Positions 1,131 through 62,830 of a stretch of DNA of 64,000 bases are shown here, piece after piece. Positions within the stretch are counted from its first letter, which is position 1. Each line of letters starts with the position of its first letter. The translations under genes and the position numbers were made by a program. Source of the stretch: Eublepharis macularius (taxonomy: Eukaryota; Chordata; Lepidosauria; Squamata; Eublepharidae); NCBI RefSeq assembly GCF_028583425.1, contig NC_072801.1, positions 20,976,001 to 21,040,000 of the forward strand. Direction: 5' to 3'. A model generated the notes under the pieces. The model was not told the DNA's origin and searched no databases. It worked only from the letters and a program-made list of their open reading frames with translations.

Positions 1131-2185
1131 ATGGATAAACCAGGTCCACAAATTGTACTTCAAATTTGTGGACTACTAATGAAATGTAAAAAAAGGTATT
1201 CAGAGAGCAAGAGGGTGCTAAAGATGCTTTTCCCTTGTGGTGCCATTTGGTCTACGAATCCCTCACAGATTTCTCCACAAACTGTAATTTCAAACAATAC
1301 CCACATTTTGGTAAATCTGTATTGTATATATAATTGTATGTTATCTAATCTTTATCTTATCTAATGAGTTTTTGTCATTTTGTGACGGCCTATGGTTGGT
1401 TATACACAATAAACTCTGAACAAATAATACTATGGATTTGTAGTGTAGGTTACTTCGAAGTTAAAAACACAGTCCTCTGCATCTCTGTCTAGAAGTACTT
1501 ACTCCCAGGTACTTGTGCATAGGCGCGCACCTTCAATAATTTCTAACTAAATTTGATTTAGATCCAACGTGAGTGAAGGATAAGGCTCTTAATTTCTATC
1601 CTTTTCCACAATGAGGGCTGGGGGGAGAGCAATTCGACCTTGAGCCTGGCGTTGTGCCTGTGACGGTGCACCGATGCGTGAAAACTCGTAACGTTTGCAA
1701 ACGAGTAGTGCGGCAACGGAACGGTGAGAGGTACTGAGCATGCTTACGCTGCTAACCTCCCCCACTCCCCCTAGCGGTCGCGCCGCAGTCCAGCCGCAAA
1801 GTTCCAAGCTGAAGCGGATAGGAAAAGGCGGAAGGCAGCCTAAAGAATGGAGGGCCACGAGAAGGGTAGAGGGAAGGCGAGAGCTGTGCCCCACTGTGGT
1901 GACTGCCAGCGCATCCCGTCTAAAACCGGGACTCAAGCGTCCGCTCCAGTTTCCCAGCGCAAAACACGAAATGGTTCCTTCGTGAAAAAGCCCAAAGGGC
2001 AGAGCGACGCCAACCGGCGTCTGGCAGAGGCACCCGCTTTTTAACCGGAAGGTTAGCTGCGGGACTTCTCCGGCTCGTCTCTCAGGGGTCGGTGGCGCTC
2101 TATCCCTCTGCACCTTTATGGTGAAAAATCCCTGTCTACCTTGCGTTCGAGGCGAAGGTCCGTTCTTTTGTGGTTTGGAACGCAA

Positions 2186-5928
<3,743 letters not shown>

Positions 5929-5949
5929 GTCCATATTGAAATCCACTGA
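5929..5949 (+). CDS. SMIM10: SMIM10-family protein, exon 2 (last six codons and stop)
   Basis: After the strong acceptor TTTCTGTTTTAG the exon reads VHIEIH and stop. This restores the conserved family ending VRLQ-VHI and joins exon 1 in phase 0. Only 21 bases are coding. The exon continues as the presumed 3' part of the SMIM10 message, which is also the first coding exon of the ankyrin protein starting at 6006. Out-of-frame ATGs at 5953 and 5960 lie between the two frames. Confidence 0.88.
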   Translation, partial: VHIEIH

Positions 5950-6005
5950 TTCATGACCTATGCTGCTCTTCAAAGGCATTCCAGCAGCCCCTGCAGTTCT
6001 ACACA

Positions 6006-6827
6006 ATGCAGAGCTTTCAGGAGAAGCAAACCTCACAAATCTCTTGCATGAACCTGGGAAAGGAAAATGACTTAGGAGCTGGACAGGTATGCAGAAGTGC
6101 TCTCAGTCAGCAGGATGAGATTCTTCATCTTCCATCGATCCATTCGTTAATGAACAATACTGAGGAGGAAAATGGGAATTTACAGCAAGAGTTGTTTTCT
6201 CTGAAGATCAGGAACTGTGCTGTCTTTAGAGCTGTGCCGCTGCCTCACATTGCCAGAAAAATGGCACCTTGTCCCAGTGATTCAGGGGCCAGGCACACCA
6301 AGAAATTTCTGGGCCTGCTTTCCCCCCCGGAACCAGATGCATTGGAGAAGGTTTTTTGTTGCCTTGATCACACTCTGGCAGCAGACTGGCTGAGGAAAGC
6401 GCATAGTTTAATCAGGGACTTGGGCACCTGGAGCTGCTGCGGGGATAACTTTGTTCAGTTTGCACACTTTTGGCTGTCGGAGCTCCAGCAAAATCAGAAG
6501 CAGCAGTTGTTGGAACTGGAAATGGGTATTATCAAGAACGAACTTCGCCTTGCGCTTCTTCAGGGATCGGACTCCAAGGAGCTTCAGCCTTTCGATTTTA
6601 ATGCCATCCTGGCTTCAGCGCTGAGTGAATACCCAACAGAACTTGTCAGCAGCCAGAGTTCATGTGTTTTCCTTGACTACTTAAACTTCATGGCTTTGGA
6701 TCAAACTCCTGGATATAAGAAAATGCTTTCGAGTATACAGTACGCGTCCAAGAACCTGCAGATAGCCCAGTGGTTGCTAGTTATACGAGCATTTGTTCTT
6801 GCAAATCTCTGGCATGCAATAGTGAAG
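6006..6827 (+). CDS. Ankyrin-repeat protein of unknown function, coding exon 1 (helical N-terminal region)
   Basis: I do not recognise this gene. The exon supplies residues 1-274 of a predicted 483-residue protein assembled from five phase-matched exons. Residues 1-100 are polar and probably disordered. From about 100 (KFLGLLSPPEPDALEKVF) to 274 the sequence is dense in predicted amphipathic helix, with a Gln/Leu-rich stretch near 158-186 (ELQQNQKQQLLELEMG). It matches no domain I know. There is no signal peptide, and hydrophobic stretches such as 256-270 look like buried helix rather than membrane. The start is the first in-frame ATG after an in-frame stop at 5937-5939; its context (ACACAATGC) is modest and M15 is possible. 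The donor is GAAG|GTAAAG in phase 0. The exon is continuous with SMIM10 exon 2, so the two frames share a transcript unless a separate promoter is used. Confidence 0.75.
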
Positions 6828-9548
6828 GTAAAGCCGCAATAGTTCTGATGTGCTTCTGCTCAGTGTTTGGCATATACTCTATAAAGTACATTAAGGCACA
6901 ACGGGTACCGTGCAAGAAAATTTCAGTAGGTATTTTAGTACACTTACCTGGGCAGCTAAAGTTGTTATGCCCATTACATGTGTTGCTTGTAACCTGTTCG
7001 GTTGATGTGCACAGATCTGTGCTATTGCTGGGGGTGAGTGCTCCCCTTCTGTGTGGAGAAGCTTGAGAAACTAACTCTGGTGGTGGCTGATGATTATAGG
7101 ATTGCAGGTGAGTAGGTTAGGCTGGAGGGGTTTTTTTTACCCCTACGAACTGGAATTCAGGTTAACCTGTTCACCTTCTTGGCATTTCTATGGTTCCAGA
7201 GTTGGTAGGGAGCCGGAGTTAATTCTTGGCCATAATTTGCTATATCACACTCTCTGCAAGGAAGAAGGAGCAAGGTGTGTGCACAGTGCCAACAACAACC
7301 TGCGGGTCCTTGGACACATTGGTTCACTGTGGCGTCTGAAGGGATCCTTGGGAGTTGCAACTGGAGTGAGCTGTCATAAGGACTTTTCAGTGGAGAAGAT
7401 GTGACAGTTTTGAGGTCATTGAATAGTAAGATGTAGAGCTCTGATGTTTAGTAGAGGAAACAGGCTAATTACCGAAGTGCCCCCAAACTGTCAGGTAGCA
7501 GATTTTTTTTTCTTTTCTTTGGGGAAGAAAAAGTTCTATTTTCAGGGCAAATGCTTGAACAATAGGTAGTGATCACCATCTTAGAAAAGGCATTCTTCCT
7601 CTGCTCTCCGGAGGAGGGAATGCCTCTTTTAAGGTAGCACTTGCTGTGAGTTATATATACATGTATCTAAATCATGTATGTGGTTTTCCTTTCAAGCTCC
7701 TTTGATTATATGCACATTTATGCAGATTTCATTGATTAAAATCTGTTTACTTGTAGTAACTTTTTTTAATTAGGTGGCAGCCCTGGTTTAAACATGGTTT
7801 GCAGAGCTAGCTGAAAACAGCATTAAGGGCTCCCATCCTGTTACATTTCTCTGGTCCCATATATTTCTTTGGTTGAACTCTACTGTGACTTGCTTCACAC
7901 ATTTGCTTTCTCTTGAATGTATGCATGGCAAGGAAATGTCATTCTTGGCTTTTTGCACCTCTATCACATGCATGCTTGAAAGCATGTATTTGCTTTGAGC
8001 TTATGTTACATTTTTAGGCATATGTGCAAAGAGTTTCAGAAGTGCCCTTTAAACTATGACACGTTGAAGCGGCCCCTCAGCTGGTGTTGTATGGTGTTTG
8101 TGTTCAAAGTGGTCTGCCCTTTGCAGGGTATTGGAAGATTACCCGCTGTAATAACAGCAGAGCAAAAGGTACTTTTGATCCCTAGCACACACTCATGTGA
8201 GTCTCTTTGAAGAGCTGCTTAGATCCTTGCAGATAAAATTTCACTTTCCCATGGCCTTTTCCAGAAGTCTGCATAAGAATTGGCACTTCTCCTGATTCTG
8301 TTGTGGCTTCTCTGCAGGCCTGATTCAGTGATGGAGATCTAGGGCACTAATGTATGCTCGTGTGCTTCACTTGACATTCCTGAGACATACTTGGGATTAA
8401 GCATTTAGAGTGAAGTGCTCAGTTGCCCTGTTTTCTCCCAGCCGTACCCCCACATTAAGCTATGACAGCTATGAGTAGGCTGTGCCTGACGATTTCTGCT
8501 TTTTTTTTAAGCACTAGGAGAAAAAGATGGGCGCCCTCTCTCACTAGTCATCCTTAGGAACAGTTCCAACCTTGCATTTCTTGGGTTAGGATATAAACGG
8601 AACTATCTCATTTTAATGTAGACCTACAGTTCATGCAGCCTGTTCTGACTGGTAGCAGAATTCCTAGGTCTTAGGCAGAGATTTTCCCCAGGGTTGTTAT
8701 TTAGATCTTTTAACTAAAGGTGATGAGAGCTGAATCAGGCCAAATCTACAGTCTTGCTACAGTGCTGTGTTAACGATGAGAGTGCAGAATTGTGTAAGAG
8801 GGCTGCTGGTCATACAAGAATACGACCTAATTGAGAACAACCTTCAGATGAGAGTTTTGCATGTGATTCTTGGGTGAAGGGGGCATCTCTTTTTTCAAAG
8901 TTTTTAAAAAACAACTTTATCTGCACACTTTCTGTTGTTGTTTTTTTAAAAAAATTGTACTCTGAGCTTCTTGGTTGTTAGCTTGCAAAATCAGGGCTTG
9001 CAATGTAGCAGACACCTGAAGGAGCAAGTTGTGAAGATTAACTGTGAGGAAGCTGTTGCGCTTTTAGATGGACAAGAGTTGACATTTTTGCACTGCTATA
9101 AAACGTTATCTAGTGGTCTTACTAACTTGTGATTGGTGCTGTGAGCAAAATCTGTTACAGCGGTGTAGTTCTTGCTGCAAAATTTTAGGGAGTCAAGGAA
9201 GGGAAGTGTAGCTATTTGCATTAGAAGGATTTTTGTTGTTATACCAAATAGAGTTTGTCTTTTCCCAGTGCCAGTACTGTCAGTTTTAAGAAGATGAAGC
9301 TCCTCTTCCCCAGTACAATAGTTACTGAAAATCAATGGGAGTCTTTTGGAAAACGATGTGTATGAACTCACATTACCTTTTGTCGAATGAATCTATATCT
9401 GGTTCATATTGCAAATGGATGTCTCTTAATCAGAAGCAAGTAATACACCTGTGGAAAGAGATATGGACATCTCCAGAGGGCAGCAGTGAAACTTGTTTTA
9501 GGTAGTTCAGGCATGCTTTTCTTTCAGAACTGGTTTTTAACTTTAAAA

Positions 9549-9770
9549 CCAGTGTGGTATAGTGGTTTGAGTGGCAGACTAGGACCTGGGCGATCTAAGT
9601 TCAGATTCCCTACTCAGCTGTGAAACTTGTTGGATAAATTTGAGCTAATCGCTTTCCCTCCCCACCAAACCTACCTCACAGGGTTGTTGTGCAGGCAGAA
9701 CAGAGGAGGAGAGAGTCATGGATAACCAGCCACCCTGAACATCTGGGAAGGACAGGATAAAAATGGGATG
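9549..9770 (+). repeat. tRNA-derived SINE (family A), near full length
   Basis: The head 'ccagtgtggtatagtggttt' contains a box-A-like promoter, and 'agttcagattccc' is box-B-like. The body has 'cctacctcacagggttgtt', and the copy ends near 'ggataaaaatgggatgg'. At least nine related pieces occur in this window on both strands. The copy is moderately diverged. Confidence 0.75.
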
Positions 9771-10296
9771 GATTCACCTGATAATATTCCCGGAGCCAAG
9801 TACTGCTATCCTTTAAGAGTGCTTTCAAAATAGGGAAAGGGTTATAAAATCGTGTGCTCTGTCCCCTCCGCAGCTGGAATCACTTTCCCTTTGAACTTGA
9901 ACCATTCTTGGATGCAATTCCTGGGTCCAGTGTTCTTTTGTGGCACCCAGGATAAGAGAGGATTGTCTGAAGCCTGCTTCAGATTCTGAGTTAGGGGTGC
10001 ATCTGTTGACATCGGCTAGGGTTAACACTGGTGCAGGCTAAAACACCTTTCGTTGTGGCTCTGTCAGTCCCTTGCTAAAAAATGGATTTGGTGACTGGTT
10101 CGTTTCTCCTGCTTTCAGCCTTTGGCTGGCTCCTACTGCTTTTAATTTGTAACTGTGCGTATTGTACTTGCATGTCTGCATAATTCAGCTGCTTCTGAAT
10201 GTGACATCACAATCCACTGATCATATTGAGTGCGGCTTAGCTATGGTAGTTAAATGTTTTAGGGCTTGCACCCCAAATACTAAACAGGCTATCATG

Positions 10297-10380
10297 GAAT
10301 GCGGTCCTAAACAGACATAACACCCTTTAAAGTCCATTGAAGGTTTTGAAGGACGGGAGTCTATTTAGGATTGTACAGTC
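10297..10380. repeat. Short MITE-like repeat, 'gcaatcctaa' family
   Basis: The ends are complementary ('gcggtcctaaacag' and 'atttaggattgt'), with 'aagtccattgaag' inside. Related copies lie at about 15712-15800, 18358-18412, 44905-44992 and 57344-57421, all with the text 'cattgact(t)caatgg' or a derivative. It looks like a tiny palindromic DNA element with no coding capacity. Confidence 0.5.
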
Positions 10381-12067
10381 AGTTAACTATGCTTACTGTT
10401 TTAAATACTATATATTATTTTTTAGCTATTTTGAAACAGTTTCTCCATTAAAGAGATCTCAAACTACTTATTCTTATTTGGGGTACGTATCTATTGACTT
10501 CACTCGAGACCACTGTGGCTCTTACCCTTTCGGATGCTTTCGTCCAGGTGTGTAATGAACCAGGGATTCCATGAGAGCAGAGGCACTGTAAGGAGGTTTT
10601 GGTGCAGGAGAACCAGTAGCCTGTCTCAGACTGTGATATGCTCAAACACATATATAAGCTGCACAGTTTGTTTTCAAAGGAATTGTGGCAATGACTTTTT
10701 ACAAACATAACAAGAGATGTAGGTACTACAGAAGAATATCATGTGGTCAAGAGCAGGGGATTGAACTACAAAGGTGATTTTTCTCAAACTTCCAGAGCTA
10801 GAGATGGATCTTACAGTAAAAGATGCATACTTGTATATAGCTGTTAGAACTGCCGTAATAGTCATTTGCTAAGGGATTATTGCTCATGGTCAGCATGCAA
10901 AGAACTGTGAGGTTCCTTGTGTCTAAAGGGACTTGAGTTCCTTGAATGGCGTTCTCCCCACTCAGGCCATGCGACAACCTGTTTTTGAAACTCAAAGAGT
11001 TTTCAAAATCAGTTTGATGTGGCACTTGGAGCCTGTTGTTGGAAGGGCAAGTGTTGTGCATGTCAGCAGGGACTTCTTAGAGAAAAAATAAAGTCATTCT
11101 AAAATAGCTCTTTGTATACAAGACAAAGCTTGTTAACTGTGTGTAATTTTCTAAATTTTCTAAAAATGTGTCTTAATGAATGAATTTAATGCTTGTGAGT
11201 GTTAATGTAAACTGTGTATTTTTTGCCTTGCATATGATGATTACAAACCTGAAAGGGAATTGATACATTCCAGCAGAAACTGAGAGGAAGGTTGATTTAG
11301 TAAAATTATGAACAGCACGATCCACAACTCTTTTAAGCTGAACATTAATCATAGGTCCCACATGTGTTTACTTGGAAGGATCTCTCAGTGTGTTCAGGGG
11401 GGCATTTCAGGTAAGTGAGCACAAGCTTGTAATCTTATTTTGACTTCTAGCAGGCTAGTGCCCCTGTGCTCAAATTGATGTTCAAAAGTCCCATGTAGTC
11501 TAATGAATCTTACTTTCAGAGTACGGATTGCAATCTGTAATGAAGAAGATAGAGGAGCTTCATCTTAATTGAGTTGTGGGCTGGACTGTAAACATCTCTT
11601 GCATTTCTGCACTTTATATTTGCAAGCAAATCTACTTCATTAAGTTTTCTTGCACTATTAGAATTTAATTGTCAGAGCGTCTCTGTGGTGCTTTTGAAGG
11701 TCAGGAGACTTAGTATACATCAAAAAATGGGCCTGCTGAATATGAAATTATCTAAAAACACTAGAGTATCAGCTTACCAGTCTTTATTGAGCAGCGACCA
11801 TTCCAGGACGAGGACTTAAACATCTGAAGGAAAGGATTTTACTCCTGTAGGGTCAAGGCAGTTATAGGAAAGACGTTTTTACTAAATCTCCTTTAATGCT
11901 GGCATCTGAGATCCATAAAATAGTCTCTCTGCACTTAAGTGCGCTCCATTCTTCTCAAAACAAGGACTGGGTGTAGCTGGAGGGTTTGTGGATTGTTTCA
12001 TCTGCATACAAGTCCTTGAGGGCTTATTATACTGTAGCAAAATAACTTTGATATACTACTTTGGATT

Positions 12068-13575
12068 AGGGGTGTGCACCAAAAAAAGAAAATCAGGAAA
12101 TTCAGATCTGGGATTTGGGGATCCCAAAAAAATCCAGGATCCTCAAAGTTCAGGAAAGATTCCCTGATCTGGCTTGGACAGTTCAAAGAAATCTTGAGTT
12201 TATTTGGCTGTTATTCCCTATGGGAAAAACTATCTGGGGGCTATCCAGGAGGCTGGGAGTGGCATTTGTCAAGCAAATGCCACCAGCCTACTCCTGATTG
12301 TCCTCTAAACACCCCCCCCCAAGTTTCAGGAAGAGTGGATTCTAGGGTCCAGTTCTGTGAGTCCCTGAACAAGGCACCTCTTGCCACTCCATTGTTTCCT
12401 ATGGAGAAAAAGTCAAAGCAGCTGACTCCCACTGGAGAAACATACTGGGCAAAGCTGCCATGGCAGAGGCACACACCCAAATGCAAGCTCCACACACAGA
12501 ATGCCCAGCAAAACCAAACCCCCCAACCCCCCAACTACCCGAGTGTTCCCGAACAAGCTGCCTGGAGCCACTTTCTTATGATGCGAATGTTTCCAAGCTG
12601 GTTCTCAGGGCATGAATGCCAGTGGCCAGGAGCACTACTTCCAAAGCAAGCTCAATCCAGGGGAAGCCCGACAGAACCAAATTAAAGCCCCTCCCAAACC
12701 CAAGTGCCCCTGAACAAGCTGCCCAGCTTACTCACCGTTGTTCCCTATTATGGGAAAGTTTCCAGTCTGGTTCTTGGGCACAAATACACCAGGGCGCAAG
12801 GCTGCCATGGCCATAGCACACTCCCAAATGCAAGCTCATCTTTGAGAAAGCCCAACAGAACCAAAGTGAAGCAAGGCATTGGAATCCCCCAGAACCAAAG
12901 TGAAGCAAGGGGACTAACATAAAATCAGAGAATCACGTTCATTCTACCCAAACCAAACTGAAGCAAGGGACACTGTCGCAACTTAGCCCAACAGAACCAG
13001 TGTCATTCAAAGCAGCCAGGTAGAACCCAGAGCAAGTGGGAGAACACCGTAGATCAGAACCAAGCAAGTGCCCAGCTACAAGCACAAGGCAAATGGCAAG
13101 CAAACATAGTTGTTATGAGATGGATCCTAAGGTGAGAGTGAGGGACAATTTTGGGAAACCCAAGTTCACCTTTCTCTCTCTGCAGGCACTCGCACTTGCT
13201 CTGAGGCAAGCCTGTTTGTTTTTTTAAACTCCTTGCAGGGCAATTTGGAAAAGGTTCTCTCCTCAGAGACTGCCATTGGCCAGAGAAGGAGAACACCTGC
13301 AAGGATTGGCCACTCACTACTCCCTCCCTGCCTTGCTCCCCCTCCTCCCTGCCTCTTCCTCCCTCTCCCCTTTTTTTTGGAGGGAAATGCTGTTTCTTTC
13401 TGAGAAGATAAGGGAAACAGTCAAGCTATTCCTACTGAATTAACCTGGATTTATTTGGGGGGTCAATCCAAGTACCTGGATTGAATCTGGGATTCTCTAA
13501 TAATCCGGGAAAGCAGGATTTTGCCAAATCGGCAAAAATCCAGCTTTTTCCCTGGACCCAGATTGTGCACCCTTA
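12068..13575. mobile_element. Large non-autonomous hAT-like element, about 1.5 kb
   Basis: The ends are inverted: AGGGGTGTGCACC on the left and TGTGCACCCTTA on the right. Inside, a unit of roughly 170-200 bases is repeated in degenerate form between about 12370 and 13000, marked by 'gaacaagctgcc' and 'cccaacagaacc'. An open stretch at 12074-12685 shows no protein signature and is best explained by biased composition. I could not see a clean target-site duplication. Confidence 0.6.
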
Positions 13576-13715
13576 GTCTGACTGAGATCTACTGTATGAT
13601 CACTAGGATGCTGTTTTCATGGTCTCTGGTTTTAAAAAAGTTTTTTAAAAAAATTATTGACAATTCATGTAAAGTCATAAGATTGACTAAACAATGTCAT
13701 GCTTTTAAAATTCAG

Positions 13716-13816
13716 TTCTATAAGGCATTGGTCAGTACCCAGATCTCTTCCGAGCAACATGTCGAGAGTTCTGTTTCCGCTCCTGAAAAGCAATCCTGTG
13801 ATGTAGTTAAAGAAAG
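13716..13816 (+). CDS. Ankyrin-repeat protein, coding exon 2 (linker)
   Basis: This exon gives residues 275-307 and part of 308. It starts after AAAATTCAG in phase 0 with FYKALVSTQ and ends AAAG|GTAAGA in phase 2, which exactly fits exon 3. A second in-frame acceptor (TACCCAG, exon start 13743) would remove nine residues, so either choice keeps the frame. The encoded segment is polar and Ser/Glu-rich and probably links the helical region to the repeats. Confidence 0.62.
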
Positions 13817-19050: not shown

Positions 19051-19210
19051 AGCTCTTCAGAGTGTTCAGTTTGGATATGCAGATGTCTTGGATTATCTTG
19101 TCAGAAACCAAAAGCTTGATCTTGGGGTCATTGATGAAAAGAACCGAAATCTGTTGTTCTTAGCAGCGGTGTATGATCAGTCTAAGATCCTGGATTATTT
19201 CCTTGAAATG
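19051..19210 (+). CDS. Ankyrin-repeat protein, coding exon 3 (first ankyrin repeats)
   Basis: Residues 308-361. The acceptor is TTCCCTTCTCAG and the donor ATG|GTCAGT. The joined codon AG|A gives R308 ahead of ALQSVQFGYADVLDYLV, a first degenerate ankyrin repeat. NRNLLFLAAVYDQSKILDYF follows, with the LxxAAxxxxxxxLxxFL spacing of a second repeat that is completed in the next exon. Exon boundaries inside or between repeats are normal for this fold. The phases match on both sides. Confidence 0.8.
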
Positions 19211-19451
19211 GTCAGTTGCATCAAAGACCCATTACAATTTAGTCTTTAGATGTCAAAAATGTTATTTTTAAAATTAAGAAAATGTCAAAGGTGCTACATT
19301 GATTTAGCCATTGGGGCCGAATCTTCAGATTTCATCTGCAGAAGTGAAAGTAACTTTCTTACCGGTAGTTGGAAGTGGGGGGAGTTCAAAGCAGCAGATG
19401 TGCTGCTTTGTTGGCTTTCTTACCTGCACTCCATATCAGCTTGCTTTTACC

Positions 19452-19699
19452 CAGGGCTTTTTTTCAGCTGGAACGCGGGTGAACAGAGTTCCGGAACCTC
19501 TTGAAAATGGTCACATGGCTGGTGGCCCCGCCCCCTGATCTCCAGACAGAGGGGAGTTTAGATTGTCCTCCGGCTCGGAGGGCAATCTAAACTCCCCTCT
19601 GTCTGGAGATCAGGGGGCGGGGCCACCAGCCATGTGACCATTTTCTTCGAGGGCAACCCACTGAGTTCCACCACCTCTTTTCCCGGAACCCCCCCCCTG
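19452..19699 (+). mobile_element. hAT-like element, copy B, with a strong internal palindrome
   Basis: Starts CAGGGCTTTTTTTC and ends CCCTG, with the perfect 8-bp duplication CTTTTACC at 19444-19451 and 19700-19707. Inside, 'ctgatctccagacagagggg' near 19537 is mirrored by 'cccctctgtctggagatcag' near 19593, giving a long hairpin. The right end has decayed into a C run. Confidence 0.85.
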
Positions 19700-19741
19700 C
19701 TTTTACCTATGCTGCCAAATTTATTTTTATTTAAATAAAAA

Positions 19742-19905
19742 TAAGGAGAAGAAGTTAATGGATATGGGCTCCCCCTGGGCTTTATGCTCTCCACAACCCC
19801 TGTGAGATAAGTTGAGCACAGCTAAGGAAGGGGTTTGAAGGTCTCCGTTATCCAAGTCCAGTCGAAGGTAACAGTCTGGCCACTGTGCCACTTTGACTGA
19901 CTATC
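19742..19905 (-). repeat. Degraded SINE fragment (family A related)
   Basis: Reverse-strand text such as 'acaacccctgtgagataagt' and 'ctggccactgtgccactttg' matches the body and head of the family A SINE. It is strongly diverged and the boundaries are approximate. Confidence 0.4.
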
Positions 19906-20502
19906 CTCTCTGACTATTACTTATAGTTTCCATAAGAGTTACCTAACTTATCGATGATCTGCGTTATCTGCTCCAAATTGCTGACCATCTCATGATGCTT
20001 GACCATCTTACTCAAGCTAGTTTTAGGGAATTAAATCCAGTTAATTTAATTAAAGGGCCCCATCCATGAATACTAGTTCAGATTTGGGTGGGGGGCACCA
20101 GTTAGCCACTGTGTGCACGTAAGGGTGGGGGAGCCAGCCCATAAGCCACTCCTGAAATTGAATTGCGTTGGACCATGAATGGAGGGGAGGGAGGGAAGAG
20201 GACGCTGCCTAAATGATACTTGTGCCTGGACAGGGAACTGGGTGCCCCCTTCTCTGCCAGAGTACCCCGTTCTGCTCTGGTGCATGCCTGTCTGCTTTCC
20301 TCTTGTGCCAGCATACCCCCCCCCATTCCTTCCCACTCCAGAAGTCCATTCTTAGTTGTTATGAACTATACCATCTATGTGCATGGTGTTTGATAATGCA
20401 AGAAGATCGGTCCCAGCTTAGAAAATGGGCAGAGGGAGGTGGCAGAGGTGAGGGGAAGCCAGAGTGTGTATGAACATGCATTACTTACACTTTTTATGTG
20501 CT

Positions 20503-20915
20503 AAAAGGAGCCCCCCAGGTACCAGTTTTTCTACCACAGGGAATGTGGAATTTTGTCTGTCTGTCTATTTTATTCGATTTGTATTCTGCCCTCCCCACAT
20601 CAGCAGGCTCAGGGCAGATTCCAGTTAATACAATAATATAAAATACAAATACCTTTAAAACCAATAAAACATCTTAAATATTTTTAAAAAGAACACAAAA
20701 GAAGAATTTACCTGGCTGCCTCAGGTCTTGAGCTGCTTAGAGTATAAAACTACCTCCCCAGCTTTATTCTACCCCACCTCCAGTGTGTGGTAGAATAAAG
20801 CTGGAGAGGTAAATTCCTTATTGGGGTCTAGCAGCTTGAGGCTTGGACTAGCTGAATAAATTCCACATTTCCCATGGTAGAAAAGCTGACATGGGAAGGG
20901 GAGCAGTTTTTTACA
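20503..20915. mobile_element. Palindromic non-autonomous element interrupted by LINE-like DNA
   Basis: The text 'tttttctaccacagggaatg' near 20526 recurs inverted as 'catttcccatggtagaaaa' near 20866. Nested inside, 'agctttattctacc' at about 20760 is mirrored by 'ggtagaataaagct' at about 20789. The two arms therefore form a long imperfect foldback. A LINE 3'-end piece (about 20553-20690, minus strand, 'ctgccctccccacatcagca') sits inside the left half. I do not know the family. Confidence 0.5.
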
Positions 20916-21904
20916 CTGCTCGCTGGGGTGAAGTAGAAGTAGAGGAATGAGATGCCCCTCCGGTGGCAATGACATGGATCACACCATTTCAGACTGCTGG
21001 GGTGGGGAAGCATATACTATGGAATGCTCCCCATATTTTTTTTAAAAAAGGAACAACAATTCCTTGCAAACTGGAAATGAGCACAGCAAGCAAAATGAGG
21101 GGGGGGGGGGTTAAGAACAATGTTTCTGGCCATGCTACTTTTCTGTTTGCATGGACTTTTTAAGCAAAGGAACCTTCAAAGCAGAAATCTACCATCCAGT
21201 CCATTCTGCCCTCTCATTTTCCTACCTTTGCCAGCCAGGGAGTTTCAGGGATGGGCAGGAGGGAGTTCCTCTTTGGTTCTTCTTCCTTTCATCTTGCTCT
21301 GAGAATCTTCTGCCTCTATTACACAAAGAGTGATAATTATAGGATCCCTCTATCCTTTTGGCACTCGGGTCATTTTCCCAGGTATCTCTGAGCTGCCTGC
21401 AAGAAAGAAGAGATGGGTAGAAGTAGGAGGAGGGGAATGAGAATTTAGCAACTCTAACATAGCCCTGTGATGGACAGCGTCCAATGATTTGTCCTGGAAG
21501 GTGCTGGCTGCCCAGAGGTCTTTCCTGTGTTTCCTTTTCGCTTTGTGTGCTCTCTGTGTTTGGCAAACGTGTGTCTGTCACAGTCCACAGTTTGCAGCTC
21601 TGATGTACACCTAAAAATGTAATGTGTGAAACAATCCTTAAGGAGTGTGTTTGTGTCGAGTAAAGAAAACATTATGGAAACTTTACAGAGGGCTTCCTTA
21701 TTAGTACATAGGGAAGGAGTCTGCATGCCTGTGGAAATACTTGTTCAATTCCTCTTGGAGTTTTAATTATCTTTAACAGAAGCTTACTAATTTCAGCATG
21801 ATTAGTTTCAAGGACACATTTGAATCTCTGCTCCTACCTGTCAAACCCGGTAGCATGGCAAGGAAGCGCTGATGTTCTTCTTCAGAGGAGGGAGTTATAG
21901 GAAT

Positions 21905-22135
21905 AGGAACTTCTTTTTTTGCAGTCAAGTCGCAGTTGACTGATGGCAATCCATTAAGATGTTCAAGGCAAGAGAGCAACAGAAGAAAGTTTGCTGTTGC
22001 TTGCCTCTGCATAACATCTCAGGTCTTCCTCGGTGTTCTCCCGTCCAAGTACTAACCAAGGCCTGCCCTGCTCAGCTTCTTAGAGCTTATGAGATTGGAC
22101 TAGCCTGGGCCATCTAGGTAAGGATGATAGGAACT
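21905..22135 (-). repeat. 5S rRNA-derived SINE
   Basis: Read on the minus strand, the head contains 'aagctgagcagggcaggcct' and 'ggttagtacttggacgggag', the internal promoter region of 5S rRNA. A body follows, ending in 'atcagtcaactgcgacttga'. It is a retroposed SINE3-type element, not a functional 5S gene: only part of the 5S sequence is present and it has mismatches. Confidence 0.75.
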
Positions 22136-23546
22136 TGGTGAAGAGCAAGGCGAGTGTAGCTTTACATATATTGAAATGTCCTCTACCAATCTTTTGTCGT
22201 AAAAGACGCCTGTGTCGTCAGAATAGAAACAGAGGGCTTTAAGTGCCATGGCCAGGCTTCCGTTTGTAGACATCTGTGGATCATCAAGAGATCGTTATCG
22301 TTATTAGGATGTTGTAATTATTTTGGTAAACAGCAGTGCAGATTGCCGAGGAGGTCGCGTGGGTTTTCCCACAAACCCTGTCTCCATGGATTTAGTCCAA
22401 ACGTCATGTCTGGGGGCAGGGGAGGAGATGAGAGGGGGGTTTGGCATTGAGCTTGGGCCTGAGACACTGGAAACGGGTGCGTGTGCTTGAAACCAGTTTT
22501 CCTCCCACACCATTTCAATGGTGGAAATTGTTCCCCCACATCACCCCGAGTTACTGTTAGCCATGGAGGGAAGGTTCTTTTTAAAAAGCATCCTTATTAG
22601 ATTTTTTTCACCCATCCTTGCTCCTCCTGAAGTTGCTATCGACTGAAACGGTGCAGAGAGGGGTGAAGGGATTCAGCCCTCCCTTGCTTAGCACCCTAAT
22701 CCAATTCTTTTCCCTCTTTTCACGCTGCTGCTCTTTAATTCTGAAGAAAATGTACTTGTTCATTCCACCCCTCGCCTGGAATTTTTGGGTTTCCCCTTTG
22801 GGGAATATCAACTTGGGTGTGTGTGTGTCCCTTTTTGAAGTGGAGTTTCTTCAGAACTGAGAGAAATGTTTCATTCACATCTGGCCTTATCGTTTTTGAG
22901 TTCCGTGGAAGAATTCAGAGGGTTCTTCCCAGACAGCATCCCGTCCAGGCAATCCCCACTTTTAAGCTTTTACCCAGTTTGTGTCCTGGGCTCTAGCCTC
23001 TAGAAGAAACAATGAATCTGCAGAGGAATCCATCTGCATAGCATGAATTGGTCTATAGGACTGGATTTTCCCATCATTTGGTAACAAAAGTCCCCTTGTG
23101 AGGACTCTTCCTCCCATTGTCAGAAAGGACTCATTCCTGGTATCCTGGAGAACTGCAGGAAGAAGCACTCTGCAGGTGGGAGTGTTCTTCATTTGTGCTT
23201 GCGTCAATAGAAAAAAAAATGGCACTGGCTGCCTAGCTAAGCAGGCATCTCTTCCTGGAAAAGCAGGGATTTCCACATACTTAAATATTATGGGGAAGGC
23301 CATGGCTCTGTAGAAGTGATTGGTTTGTATGCAGAAGGTCCCACTCCCAAGTTCACTCTCCAGGACCTCCTGGTAACATATCTCAGGAAACAGGTATTAG
23401 GAAAGACCATTCTTTGCTGGAGACCCTGGAGAGCTACATCCTATCTGAATAGGCTGAAGTCCTGCATGCATTTAATATGTAATTTGAATAAGTATAAATT
23501 TTGAAAAACATGCTGAGCTAAGTGGACTAATGGACTAAGGCAGCAT

Positions 23547-24130
23547 CAGGGCTTTTTTTCTGGGAAAGAGGTGGTGGAACTCAGTGGGTTGCCCTCGGAG
23601 AAAATGGTCACATGGCTGGTGGCCCCGCCCCCTGATCTCCAGACAGAGGGGAGTTTAGATTGCCCTCCGCGGCACCAAGTGGCGCGGAGGGCAATCTAAA
23701 CTCCCCTCTGTCTGGAGATCAGGGGACGGGGCCACAGCCATATGACCAGGGCTTTTTTTCAGCGGGAACGCGGTAGAACGGAGTTCCGGCACCTCTTAAA
23801 AATGGTCACATGGCCAGTGGCCCTGCCCCCTGATCTCCAGACAGAGGAGAGTTTAGATTGCCCTCCGTGCTGCCGAGTGGCGCGGAGGGCAATATAAACT
23901 CCCCTCTGTCTGGAGGTCTGGGGGTGGGGCCACCAGCCATGTGACCATTTTCGCTGTGGGCAATTTAAACTTTAAAAAATTCCCCCCTTGTTCCAGCTGA
24001 CCCAAAGTGACGTCATTGTGCGGTCTTGAGTTCCACCACCTCTTTTCCCAGAAAAAAAGCCCTGCATGTGACCATTTTCAAGAGGTTCCGGAACTCCGTT
24101 CCACCATATTCCAGCTGAAAAAACGTCGTG
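23547..24130 (-). mobile_element. hAT-like element, copy C outer
   Basis: Opens with CAGGGCTTTTTTTCTGGG and is flanked by perfect 8-bp duplications GGCAGCAT (23539-23546 and 24131-24138). It is itself interrupted by copy C inner. Its far end is decayed ('gctgaaaaaacgtcgt'). Confidence 0.85.
23747..24064 (+). mobile_element. hAT-like element, copy C inner (nested)
   Basis: Complete ends CAGGGCTTTTTTTCAGC and GAAAAAAAGCCCTG, with target duplication CATATGAC against CATGTGAC (7 of 8). It sits inside copy C outer, so it is younger than that copy. Confidence 0.85.
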
Positions 24131-24479
24131 GGCAGCATCATGTATTCAAGTTACCTTATGCCAAGTACAACTACCAGTCTGTATAGCTCCAGATTTGCTA
24201 CCTTCTCAGGTGCTAATTTTTCCTGATCATGTTTCCGTTGATTCTTTGGCTTATGCCAGGACATGCTATATGCTAAGCACGATCTCTCTGCACTGAGATT
24301 TCCTGTAGATTTTTTAATTTGTTATTTCTTCTTACGTTTTTTGTTAGAGATATAATTATTATTTTTTTATTGTTAGGAATAGCATACAGTGTGTCACTAT
24401 TTGTGATTTTATTTTGACTTCTAATGTACGTCTCCTTATGTGTGTGGTATTCTCCACTGGCTATTGTTTGTTCTTCTAG

Positions 24480-24660
24480 ACCCTTCCCATACCTGATGTA
24501 AACCAAGCAGCAGAAAACGGAAACACGCCGCTTCATGCTGCAGTAAACACTGGAAAAATGCACCTGGTCTCACTGCTCTTGCATTACCCTGGAATCAATG
24601 TGAACATCCCCAACCCACAGTGCGATGGAGCTACCGCGCTGCACCTTGCTATTGTTTATG
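24480..24660 (+). CDS. Ankyrin-repeat protein, coding exon 4 (central ankyrin repeats)
   Basis: Residues 362-421 and the first base of 422. The acceptor is TTGTTCTTCTAG. The sequence contains GNTPLHAAVNTGKMHLVSLL, a canonical ankyrin repeat (TPLHAA, then LVxLLL), and begins the next with DGATALHLAIVYG. The donor TATG|GTAAAA leaves phase 1, matched by exon 5. The NVNIP-like loop between the repeats is typical of IkB-like ankyrin proteins, but I would not assign a subfamily from this alone. Confidence 0.88.
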
Positions 24661-25270
24661 GTAAAATCCCTGGCTGTTTTTTTTTTTGTGGCTTTAGGAC
24701 AGTTCTGTGTTTAAATCCATGCCATAATTCTTTAGTGATAGAGAAAACATGCCCACCTTGGGCTTTGAGATGCTTGAGAGAAAGGAGGAAATATAAACAC
24801 TCTAAACAAAATACGGATCGGTTCCTTAAGGTGGTTATGGTGATGCGGACAAACTAACTTTAATTTTGGCCTCTTCAGGATTTCAACAGAGGCATTGACA
24901 TTTATTGAAGCAAAAAAATGGTGTGCGTGTGTGTTAACATCTATAGTTACTATTTACTACCACATTTTTATCCCATCCTTTCTCAAAGAAGTTCCAGGGC
25001 ATCATATAAAGTGAAAAACAGAACAGTACTTAAGATCCCAGATTCAGAGTTACTGAAATGTATTGATTTCAGCGGGTTTAGACTGGAGCAGCTGTGTCTA
25101 GGAGTTGCCCTGCAAGAAGCGGACCCCAAGCAGCTCAATCGCTCAGATAAATGTCTAGGGAAGCCCGAACGCAGGACCTTTGGATCTTTTGCATATGTTT
25201 CGGTTGCTATTATCACCAGCTAAAAAAAAAAAATCTCTCTCCTCCTTCCCTCTGGTTTTATTTTTTTTAG
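24661..25270 (+). other. Ankyrin gene intron 4
   Basis: A short 610-base intron ending in a T-rich tract and TTTTTTTAG. It contains a small LINE-tail-like patch near 24740-24800 and nothing else that I recognise. Confidence 0.6.
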
Positions 25271-25458
25271 GGCACCTGGGAATTTGCTATTTATTGCTGA
25301 ATGCTGCAGCTGATGTTGAAAGTCCTGTCGGAGGGTTAACACCTTTACAGCTTGCGGAAATGTTTGGTAACAAAGCTATCATTGGCCTTCTCAAAATGCA
25401 TGTCAAACGATTTAAGCTTGAAAGTAAAATGTTAGGCTTGTCAGCTTTAGAATTTTAA
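25271..25458 (+). CDS. Ankyrin-repeat protein, last coding exon
   Basis: Residues 422-483 and a TAA stop. It completes the repeat started in exon 4 (GHLGICYLLLNAAADVES) and adds GLTPLQLAEMFGNKAIIGLL, a last repeat with the TPLQLA core. A short basic tail (HVKRFKLESK) ends in LSALEF. The C-terminus lies just after the repeats, so the protein carries no other C-terminal domain. Confidence 0.88.
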
Positions 25459-25473
25459 AAAAATGGTTTTTTA

Positions 25474-25479
25474 ATTAAA
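25474..25479 (+). terminator. Likely polyadenylation signal ATTAAA
   Basis: ATTAAA lies 15 bases after the ankyrin stop codon, followed by a T-rich stretch. If used, the 3' UTR would be very short; a longer UTR ending further on cannot be excluded. Confidence 0.4.
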
Positions 25480-30327: not shown

Positions 30328-30546
30328 AGGGGCGCCAGGTTCAGGTTGGGAAATTCCTGGAGATTTTGGGGGTGGAGCCTGGAAAGAGGGGAGTTTGGGG
30401 AGGAAAGGGGCCTCAACGGGGTATAATGCCATAGAATCCACCCCCCAAAGTAGCCATTTTCTCCAGGGGAACTCATCTCTGTGGCCTGGAGATCAGTTGT
30501 AATTCCGGGAGATCTCCAGCCACCACCTGGAGACTGGCAACCCTAG
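30328..30546 (+). mobile_element. Complete hAT-like element, GGTTGCCAG-end family
   Basis: Ends AGGGGCGCCAGG and CTGGCAACCCTAG, flanked by a perfect 8-bp duplication TGCAACCT (30320-30327 and 30547-30554). It is 219 bases with no coding capacity. Related copies are at 860-968 and 60197-60645. Confidence 0.8.
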
Positions 30547-30562
30547 TGCAACCTTATACATG

Positions 30563-30700
30563 AGCTACCCGTGTCCTTTTTCTGTCAGTAAGCGTTATCA
30601 AAGGCCCGTGTCCCATCGGCGGAGTACTTAAAAGACCGAGACAGTATCCAGGGTGTAAGCTTTCGAGACTCCAAGCTCCCTTCGTCCCGCATCTGGGTCG
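30563..30700 (-). repeat. Penelope-like repeat fragment at the edge of a CpG island
   Basis: Read on the minus strand, 'gggacgaagggagcttggag', then 'tctcgaaagcttacaccctg', then 'cggtcttttaagtactcc' follow the order of the hammerhead-like family: (CT)GACGA, stem, GAAAGC, tail. It lies directly upstream of or inside the promoter of the gene starting at 31019. Confidence 0.5.
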
Positions 30701-31260
30701 GCAGGGCCCCGTGGCTGCTTGGCGAGCCAAGGACTCCGTGAGAAGAAGCCTCGCTGCCCCGGCTGGGCCACCTCCGGCGGCTCCAGAGTCCTCCCCTGCG
30801 GGTGGCGCGGCGCCGAGGGAGCAGCCGGGGCCGGGCCGAGGCGGCCTCTCGGCTCTCCCTCCCCTCATGGGTCACATGAGAAGCGGCGGGCGGGCCGAGG
30901 CGGCGGCGGCGGCGGAGCTGGTTCTGAGGGGAATTGGCTGGCGGAAGGGAGCGGGGCGAGAGGGAAGAAGCAGCAGAGGCGCCCCGGCTGAAATTTCCCT
31001 CAGGAGCGCGGCGGCATCATGGACGAGGAAGGCGGCGGGAGCGGTGAGCGACTCTGGGCTGAGGAGGGGGAGAAGGTGGCGTCGACAGGCGGGGGAAGGG
31101 GATGGGGACACGGCGAGACCCCGAAAGCAGAGCCCGCGAAGACGCTCTGCCACTGCAGCTGGGGAGGGAACGAGTGCTCCTGAGCGTGTGCAGAGTGCCC
31201 CCCGCTCGTCGTGTCGTGGGAAACGGACCCTCTCAGTCCGGCCCCATTCCCTCCTCGCCC
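30690..31260 (+). promoter_or_regulatory. CpG island of the second gene
   Basis: Very high G+C and CpG density, including GCC/GGC triplet runs near 30898-30918. No TATA box. The strong ATG at 31019 with a GTGAGC donor 25 bases later sits near its centre. Confidence 0.75.
31019..31043 (+). CDS. First coding exon of an unidentified gene (MDEEGGGSG...)
   Basis: ATG in a strong context (A at -3, G at +4) inside a CpG island, followed by DEEGGGSG and the donor GCG|GTGAGC in phase 1. A short acidic/glycine first exon is common in vertebrate nuclear or cytosolic proteins and does not identify the gene. The next exon should be downstream; a weak candidate with matching phase is at 58519. If so, intron 1 is about 27.5 kb. 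Confidence 0.5.
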
Positions 31261-31639
31261 ACTTTCCCCTCAGGCTATCCGGCCCTGGATTATTGCCCCC
31301 CTCCCGGGTCTGTTTTTGTAGTTAGCCCTGTGGAGATGTTTCCCCCCTCTGTTCAAATGCTGTTTGGAAATACGTATGCATTCTTAAAGCTGACTGTAAA
31401 TATTGCGGTTGTCGAAGAGTTGGTACCTTTCTGCTTTTTTTTTAAAAATGTGAAACTTTTCGGTTCAAAGGCTACTTAGAGATGTTGCCTTTTTTTTGAA
31501 AGGCTGCCTAGAAATATCGCAGGTAGTCGGTAACTTTTAAGTTCAGTGAAACTTTAAAAAATTATATTGGATATATTGTAAAAGTGTATTTATTGTATTT
31601 AGCACGTTTTAAATCTTGCACTTGTTCAAGGGAGCGTAA

Positions 31640-32239: not shown

Positions 32240-32409
32240 TTGCTACCACAGACTAACACGGCTAACTCCTCTGCATTTGAACTGAAGGGGATCAAAGCAT
32301 GGAAGCATCCCATCTGCCACAGTGCCATGCTTAGGCACCTTTAGGGGAAAGGTCAGGGATTTTTCTGCAGTCCTTGATCCTGTTTGTGACACATTCCACA
32401 AGCATGCAG

Positions 32410-32493
<84 letters not shown>

Positions 32494-32495
32494 TT

Positions 32496-32575
<80 letters not shown>

Positions 32576-32577
32576 TC
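32410..32577. repeat. (TTTC)n microsatellite, about 167 bases
   Basis: An almost pure TTTC tract with a single interruption near 32492 (an added TT). It is likely to be length-variable between individuals. Peptides of repeated FLSF or KKER type read from it are artefacts. Confidence 0.98.
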
Positions 32578-32599
32578 GCACTCGCTGCCACTAATGACA

Positions 32600-33925
32600 G
32601 TTGGACTACACCCATTAGTCTGCATTGAAATCAGTTTTTTAAAAAACTCGACCCTTTCTTTTAACCCCACTGCTAAACAATCCCTTAAAGGAGCTCCCAT
32701 CTGACTAACATTCACTTTATCCTTTAAGATTAACAAGTAATCTCATGTGCCTAGTGTTCTCTTGAATGACACAGAGCATCTGCTGGCCTTTGCTGCACCA
32801 TTTTTTTTCCTTCTGGTTTTTCCACACAGACTTTAGTTGCATGTCAGAAGCTCAACAGGTTTGTCTGAATTAGACGGCTCTTGATTGTGCTGCTTCCTCC
32901 CAGAGGGCTGGCATTTGTGGCTAGCCTAGCAACCTGTGGTGACATAGTCTCTGTCCTTTGTGACATGGTTCTCCCTCTCTGTCACAAACACAGCCATTTT
33001 CTCTGTGGCTCTCCTTTCTGGATATCCCTTCATGAGTTCCATAGACCAGTTTCTGACAATGTACAACTGTGTAGAACTGATATTTTGCTACTGGCTGTAC
33101 AATCCTGGTTCCTTTTTGTTGGCAGGGCTTGCTTTACCCCTCATTTCAATTCATTTGCACCCCTAAACAGCCCCTTGCTATACCCCTCTCATTTCCCTAC
33201 TCTGTTTTGGGCATACCTCCCTGTCTCTTAATTGTGAACAGCCTCCCCATTCATGCATTTTCTGTTCTTGGCCCCTGCACCATCGCCTACGGATTGCCTT
33301 TTCACATATTTATCAATGCCTCTCGGGATGGGATGGGGGGTGGAGACTGAGAGGGGAGGAGTATAAAGTGTAGCACAGAGTAGTTTTCAGGCTGCTGCTT
33401 GCTTTATGAAGAGGAGTGTTTGTTGCTGGAAGATCAGGGTTGATCTCCCTGGCAAGGCAAATGCCAGAAATTCTGCCTGGTTTTGCTAATTCTAACGTAA
33501 AGATGCTGTTCTTAAGAAGATTGCTTCATTCACTGTTGAGGACAATAGAGAACTTTATACTGTGGGGTCTGCTTTAAGTTATGCACCCCCCACCCCCAGA
33601 CTCCTTCTGAAAGGTCAACTGTTTCTGAAAGATGAAAAATGAATGCATAGTGTTCAGGGGTTGTGTCAGTGGTAAGAAAAAGCAATTTATTAATGTAAGA
33701 TGAGGCCCAGTCATGGAAACAGTCGCATCTTCAGAATATGAGAAGGCATGGGGGGAATGCAGTGGACGCTTTCAAAGGGTAGATTCATTCCATTGGTGTT
33801 AATGTTAGCAACAAATTGTTAGTTGCTCTTTCTTGACACTGTGAAATCATTGTATTTTTCCTGTGCATACTTTGCAGAAAACAGTGAGCTTTGAAAGGTT
33901 GATCCCCGTCTGCACACTTAGCAAT
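32600..33925. other. Intronic DNA, nothing recognised
   Basis: No repeat family or splice-bounded frame with a recognisable protein is seen in this stretch. Confidence 0.45.
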
Positions 33926-60919: not shown

Positions 60920-62830
60920 GTCCAAGCCTTTATTTATTTCAATTTGTATCCTGCATTCCTTGCAAGCAGGCTCATGGTGGGTCACAATAATAATAAGTAC
61001 AAGGTTAAAAACACTTTAAAAGAAAAAGTAAGTCACAAATCACATACAACCAGCAATTAAAATACGTTAACTGTGAGATCTCAATGAGGCTGTAACAAGA
61101 CTACAAAGTAAAGCCAGTAATGTAGATCTACTGATCACATCGAGGGCAGCATGGGGTGGAGCACGGGCAGTCAGGAGGGACAGATTGCCAGCATCTCAGC
61201 CATAGGCCCAACAGAACATCTCCGTCTTACAGGCCCCATAGAACTGTAACAAATCCCACAGGGCCCTGGTCTCCATTGGGAGAGCATTCTACCAGGCCAG
61301 TTCCAGAGCCAAAAAAAGCTCTGGCCCTGGTCAAGGCTAGGTGAATGTCCCTCAGGCTGAGGACCAGCAGTAACTGCTTATCTGCAGAGTGCAAGGCCCT
61401 CCAGGGGATATATTGAGAGAGGCGGTCCTGCAGGTATATTGGTCCCAGTCCATTAAGGGCTTTAAATATCAAAACCAGAACTTTGGACTAGATCTGGAAC
61501 TCAACTGGAAGCCAGTGCAGCTGACTCAGCACTGGATGGCTATGCTTCCTATTCAGTGTCCTCATGAGGACATGAGCTGCCACATTCTGGACCAGCTGCA
61601 ATTTCCAGGTCAGGCCCAAGGGCAGCCCTGCATAGAGCAAATTACAGTTGTCCAGCCTGGAGGTGACCATTGCTTAGATCACTGAAGCCAGGTCCTGGGA
61701 GGAAAGATAGGGCACAAGCTGCCTGATCTGTCGAAGGTGAAAAAAGGCAGACCTGGCAATAGCTCTGACCTGGGCCTCCATCGAAATTGTGGCATCCAGG
61801 GTCACGCTCAGGCTCTTCACTGTCAGCAAAGGCATTAATTTAATTACACTCCGTCGAGGTTTGGGAGCTGGATCCCTAAGCCCATTGTCCCACGGCCCAG
61901 GAGCAGGACCTCTGTCTTCAGAGGATTCAACTTCAAGTGACTCTGTCTCCACCATCCCACCTTCCAGACCTTTGGCCAAGGTATCTGGCTTGATGTCCGG
62001 CTAGCCTTCATCAACAGATATAGCTGGGTGCCATCAGCAAACTGGTGGTAATCCAGCCCCAAACTAAGGATCACCTAGGCGCAAGGAGCACATATAGATG
62101 TTAAACAGCATCGAGGAGAGAATAACCCCGAGAGCCTCCACACAACAAGGGGTGGCATAATGATATCTGCTCCCCAAGTGTCACCCTTTGCCCCCAACCG
62201 TGGAGAAAGGAGCACAATCACTGTTACGTATCGCCACAGTGGTGAGGTGGTGGGTCAAAAGATCATGATCAACTATGTCAAACGCAGCTGAAAGATCTAG
62301 TAATAGCAACAACACTGACCCACCCTGATCATCTGTGAGGGTGACTAGTGCTGTCTCTGTCTCATGGCCAGGACTGAAATGGGTCCAGGATGGAGGAATC
62401 CTCCAAGAATACCTGGAGTTGCTCAGCCACTGCCTGCTCAATTACCTTACCCAGAAAAAGGAGATTCGAGACAAGGCAGTAATTAGCTGGATCAGTAGGA
62501 TCCAAAGATAGTTTCTTTAATAAGGGCCATGCCACTTCCTCTTTTAGTGAGCCTGGAAAAATCGCAGAACTCATGGACAAGGGGGCCCGTATCCCTGCCC
62601 ACCAGTCTTCACCAACGATGACAGGCACAGGTCCAGTGGGCACATGGTAGGCTTCACAACATTTAGGATCCTGTCCACCGCATTCTGAGAGAGTTGTTTG
62701 AATTGAGCCAATATCAACTTTGAAGTCAGGAGGTAGAGATGTTTTGCAACTAGAACTCCCGACATTGTTATCTGAATCTCACCCATTGAGTGGGACATAT
62801 ATTGGAGGCAGTGCTACACATGCTAATTGT
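60920..62830 (-). mobile_element. L2-type LINE, minus strand, broken
   Basis: Minus-strand reverse transcriptase blocks are clear: LLLLLDLSAAFDIVDHDLL (about 62290), FADGTQLYL in place of YADDTQLY (about 62030), LKLNPLKTEVLLLGR (about 61930) and SRLDNCNLLYAGLP (about 61650). The 3' tail (TTTATTTATTTC on the plus strand) is at about 60930. Several frameshifts and stops separate the blocks, and the active-site DD is altered to DG, so it is inactive. Confidence 0.82.

Follow-up and report, generated by a model that had tools for sequence, protein, structure and literature searches.

A SMIM10L3-FAM220 locus in Eublepharis macularius with two separate coding sequences on one predicted transcript

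Introduction

SMIM10L3, first named SAGSIN1, is described in the HGNC account as a protein-coding gene of mouse and human that lies nested within the FAM220A 5' UTR (PMC12807706, HGNC, 2026). The HGNC source is Ueda et al., 2009, which, by its title in the reference list of that paper (PMC12807706), deals with two proteins from one Acpin1 mRNA. The same account gives the human SMIM10 family as SMIM10L3 plus four further paralogs, five members in all (PMC12807706). The mammalian FAM220A protein (SIPAR) is reported to bind and repress STAT3 (PMC6559655, citing Ren 2015), and a single deletion at human 7p22.1 is described in the same article as intersecting both FAM220A and RAC1 (PMC6559655). On a wider scale, 14 polycistronic human transcripts have been reported (PMC13303939); SMIM10 and FAM220 are both absent from the main text of that article.

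Here the window, that is, the whole 64-kb stretch of DNA analysed (C12:20976001-21040000, with positions lacking a contig name counted from its first base), is compared with these systems. With a probability of about 0.85, it is proposed to carry one SMIM10L3-FAM220 transcript with two separate coding sequences, at a locus orthologous to mammalian SMIM10L3-FAM220A.

Results and Discussion

Two coding sequences and a shared exon

The features on which this reading is built are the following:

1501..3000, no strand assigned: CpG island, probable SMIM10L3-FAM220 promoter region; the only island before 30401 by the same criteria
2445..2633, plus strand: SMIM10-family (SMIM10L3) coding exon 1; 63 codons, phase 0 end, DUF4560 match
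5929..5949, plus strand: end of the SMIM10L3 coding sequence (VHIEIH and stop); acceptor score 6.21, profile reached to position 64 of 64
5950..6005, plus strand: spacer between the two coding sequences, 56 bases; two short out-of-frame ATG frames, four AGs, no unusual fold
6006..6842, plus strand: FAM220 coding sequence; 278 codons, PF15487 E 7.4e-53, single genome match

The first coding sequence has its start at 2445, with a further in-frame ATG upstream at 2418, and its predicted product is a membrane microprotein of 69 residues. Exon 1 runs to 2633 and ends there in phase 0, as the original prediction had it; the acceptor AG of the second exon is at 5927-5928, and the stop codon at 5947-5949. 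Only 0.83% of the 9114 AGs in the window are as good as this acceptor. The spliced protein belongs to the SMIM10 family by its match to Pfam PF15118 (DUF4560; E 5.9e-39, 132.2 bits, curated cut-off 27), in which residues 6-66 align to positions 4-64 of the 64 in the profile. Because the DUF4560 profile finds one match in the genome, SMIM10L3 at this locus, and the human family has five members, this FAM220-linked gene may represent the ancestral copy. Among bacterial and archaeal genome contigs, where no relative is expected, 594 pattern matches to SMIM10 were obtained and none was confirmed.

The frame that opens at 6006 had been read as an ankyrin frame of 274 codons, an assignment that has to be replaced. 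It matches the FAM220 family (PF15487) at 180.4 bits against a curated cut-off of 27, the domain occupying residues 29-265 and profile positions 27-270 of 271. PF15487 is the only Pfam family listed for 6006-6827 at E up to 1, and no ankyrin repeats were found by Pfam in that stretch; the first exon with ankyrin homology is the one at 19051. The stop codon, TAG at 6840-6842, lies in the same exon as the start and ends 15 bases past the exon end proposed at 6827. The FAM220 profile has one match in the genome, at this locus. In a viral collection, where no relative is expected, five pattern matches to FAM220 were found in the contigs and none was confirmed.

The coordinates that place the end of SMIM10L3 and the frame from 6006 within one exon held, the splice from 2633 to 5929 being predicted from sequence. 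A search of the genome for retrocopies recording the splicing gave none at E up to 0.001; its outcome was one DUF4560 match, one FAM220 match and one match to the exon DNA genome-wide.

Locus identity and genomic neighbours

RAC1 exons are matched on the minus strand at C12:20954435-20963769, about 12 kb to the left of the window; these exon matches make up 4 of the 80 matches of this query in the genome, have 86-98% identity and form its best-scoring group of separate exons. The higher-scoring matches of the RAC1 query elsewhere are whole single-frame relatives of the Rho type, at 45-74% identity. On the other side, about 8 kb to the right of the window, CYTH3 exon matches are found at C12:21047590-21068698 on the plus strand (11 of 46 in the genome, including the two best), and the paralog groups of this query are located at other places in the genome. 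Within the 64-kb window the two queries gave chance-level exon matches only (E about 3), and a search there with a small number of short motifs from RAC1 and CYTH3 gave nothing credible.

Human CYTH3 is presumably also a neighbour of the RAC1/FAM220A locus. RAC1 and CYTH3 thus stand on either side of a SMIM10-family coding sequence that is directly upstream of FAM220 and, with the predicted splice, ends in the same exon. As RAC1 and CYTH3 flank the window, and human FAM220A adjoins RAC1 at 7p22.1, the locus is identified on synteny and predicted gene content as the orthologous SMIM10L3-FAM220A locus.

A second CpG island, at 30401-31500, is located upstream of the CYTH3 exon matches that start at C12:21047590, and is probably the putative promoter and first exon of CYTH3. 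The window also contains a long simple repeat at 32331-32630, whose open frames encode repeats of Ser/Phe/Leu (plus strand) and Lys/Glu/Arg (minus strand), and a reverse-transcriptase-like fragment at 62181-62441 on the minus strand (RVT_1, E 2.6e-5, not reaching the curated cut-off), perhaps a decayed LINE.

Promoter and translation of the shared transcript

The island at 1501-3000 came from a scan in 500-base windows with a step of 100 (GC > 0.5, CpG observed/expected > 0.6), and being the only one before 30.4 kb, it argues for one promoter. In the proposed arrangement the transcript would begin in this island near 2400, splice from 2633 to 5929, and carry the SMIM10L3 coding sequence followed by that of FAM220 from 6006, the latter with 278 residues if it ends in the shared exon. 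SMIM10L3 and FAM220 would then both be translated from one mRNA, as is published for mouse according to the title of Ueda et al., 2009 and the HGNC statement. As a counterpoint, a non-CpG start in the 2634-5928 intron may give FAM220 a monocistronic mRNA of its own.

FAM220 would be reached mainly by leaky scanning. Six ATGs precede that of FAM220 on the spliced mRNA between 2300 and 6006, and five of them (2418, 2445, 2610, 5953 and 5960) lack a purine at -3; the sixth, at 2613 and internal to SMIM10L3, has an A in that position, as does the ATG at 6006. This proposal is drawn from the fact that both SMIM10L3 starts and both spacer ATGs are without the -3 purine and the FAM220 start has it. 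Against it, the ATG at 2445 has a G at +4, and scanning ribosomes may be caught at 2445 or 2613 before FAM220. The two spacer ATGs are indeed out of frame, opening frames at 5953-6051 and 5960-6070 that both overlap the FAM220 start, and the hindrance to initiation at 6006 attributed to them was overstated given their -3 context. Reinitiation after a frame of 69 codons with a spacer of 56 bases should be inefficient.

A structured internal ribosome entry site in the spacer was also considered and was rejected. The predicted RNA fold of 5929-6028 is no more stable than those of shuffled sequences (z 0.89; equal or greater stability in 160 of 200 shuffles), so nothing points to such a site, and no Rfam family reaches its gathering score anywhere in the window.

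Later acceptors and an in-frame fusion

The nearest in-frame stop upstream of 6006 is at 5937-5939, so that 5940-6005 is open as originally stated, and the three later AGs, with their last bases at 5984, 5987 and 5996, do leave the FAM220 frame in phase 0. Splicing to 5985, 5988 or 5997 would therefore place the membrane segment of SMIM10L3 in frame with FAM220, in fusions with predicted lengths of 348, 347 or 344 residues, or with FAM220-ankyrin, in a fusion of about 550 residues. An open frame in the right phase is what such a fusion needs; however, 22 open codons are expected by chance in about 35% of cases ((61/64)^22, by hand), and at least three of four AGs being in phase has a probability of about 0.11 (by hand), two of them forming one NAGNAG pair. 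All four AGs in 5929-6005 are inside the spacer, and none is a good acceptor: the sites score -1.10 (5985), -1.88 (5988) and 0.34 (5997) against 6.21 for 5929, and 19.8%, 24.7% and 13.0% of the AGs in the window, respectively, are as good. A weak point against the fusion is that the protein spliced at 5929 reaches position 64 of 64 in the SMIM10 profile, whereas exon 1 plus one intron codon reaches 62.

With acceptors 6 to 8 bits under the one ending at 5928, the fusion through tandem AGs is very improbable. These splice-site scores were calculated with assumed base frequencies and no fitted model, and since they disfavour the acceptor at 13716 as well as the late AGs, the score alone does not decide. 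The original prediction of a bicistronic or in-frame fusion locus thus stands in its first half, which agrees with the synteny and is already known, because HGNC places SMIM10L3 in the FAM220A 5' UTR, and loses its second half to the weak later acceptors.

Ankyrin exons downstream of FAM220

Between FAM220 and CYTH3 the window contains further candidate exons, with a donor-like site shortly before the FAM220 frame ends:

6828..6833, plus strand: donor-like site AAG/GTAAAG, candidate splice to the ankyrin exons; phase 0, score 3.59
13716..13816, plus strand: putative linker exon; phase 0 in, 2 out, weak acceptor, strong donor
19051..19210, plus strand: ankyrin exon; phase 2 in, 0 out
24480..24660, plus strand: ankyrin exon; phase 0 in, 1 out
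25271..25459, plus strand: final ankyrin exon, which contains the stop; ATTAAA signal at 25474

The linker exon has no family match over a cut-off, and the ankyrin exons at 19051 and 25271 taken singly have Pfam matches below the curated cut-offs. Joined, the exons from 19051 to 25459 match Ank_2 (E 2.4e-19) and Ank (E 8.6e-17), both over their cut-offs, as expected of an ankyrin-repeat protein. The ankyrin query has 14 matches in the genome, the best four of which are the exons of the window itself and the other 10 have 28-41% identity. In the PDB, 402 distinct sequences were matched by the ankyrin part; most of the 60 matches listed are either ankyrins or designed ankyrin proteins, which names no close relative. 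NCBIfam gave eight matches, all far below the cut-offs.

It is possible that the donor at 6828 joins FAM220 to the exons at 13716, 19051, 24480 and 25271, to give a second cistron of 483 residues with a FAM220 and an ankyrin part. The reading frame stays open across all four joins, and the exon at 13716 requires an upstream partner in phase 0, which the site at 6828 offers; phase agreement at the 6827/13716 join occurs, however, in one of three cases by chance. The donor itself lies 12 bases before the FAM220 stop codon and is matched or exceeded by 1.67% of the 6539 GTs in the window, yet an in-phase donor-like CAG/GTATGC at 6087, early in the FAM220 frame, scores higher (4.57 vs 3.59). At the other side of this join the acceptor is poor, with a score of -1.63 and 23% of AGs as good.

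The alternative is a separate ankyrin gene that has a promoter and a first exon of its own in the interval from 6843 to 13716 and is linked to FAM220 by position only. The FAM220 stop at 6842 comes just past the end of the domain (residue 265, profile position 270 of 271), as it would if FAM220 ended there. Two of the ten donor-like sites scoring at least 3.0 from 6843 to 13600 could end a separate ATG-led first exon in phase 0; the two candidates end at donors 7034 and 13132, and their leader peptides may be chance. No CpG island that could serve a separate ankyrin gene occurs from 3.0 to 30.4 kb, an interval that includes the stretch where its promoter would have to be. The polyadenylation signals are divided in a similar manner: no AATAAA or ATTAAA is present from 5950 to 7734, which favours a transcript that continues through the FAM220 exon, and four such words, at 7735, 10447, 11087 and 12681, fall within 6843-13715, so that the transcript may end upstream of the ankyrin exons.

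Against the extension, the end of human FAM220A is only a few residues away from that of the shared exon. To our knowledge human FAM220A has no ankyrin part, and we know of no mammal with an ankyrin extension of FAM220. The extended protein and the separate gene are about equally probable, each a little short of even odds. The former is compatible with the proposed transcript of two coding sequences and alters its second product; if true, a domain of a STAT3-repressor family would have a four-exon ankyrin extension in this lineage, encoded downstream of a membrane microprotein on the same mRNA. As a separate observation, if the FAM220 exon were skipped, SMIM10L3 exon 1 would join the ankyrin exons in frame (2633 to 13716), giving 272 residues.

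Comparison with known systems

The locus resembles the human and mouse SMIM10L3 (SAGSIN1)-FAM220A (SIPAR; Acpin1 mRNA) system in having a SMIM10-family sequence upstream of FAM220A in what would be one transcription unit, with RAC1 as a neighbour. It differs from its mammalian counterpart in the ankyrin exons that separate FAM220 from CYTH3 and whose phase fits the donor-like site of the FAM220 exon; we know of no ankyrin exons at the mammalian FAM220A gene. As in the dual-coding mRNAs with upstream-ORF microproteins of SLC35A4/STREMI and MIEF1, a small protein is encoded upstream of a larger one, although the proteins named in the accounts of those systems differ from SMIM10 and FAM220 (PMC13303939, PMC6283296). 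The bicistronic arrangement is already known from mammals, and the present locus is a further member. Its order and neighbours, the same as in human and mouse, would suggest that the pairing of SMIM10L3 with FAM220 is old and has been kept, and its ankyrin exons bear on a possible lineage-specific extension of FAM220.
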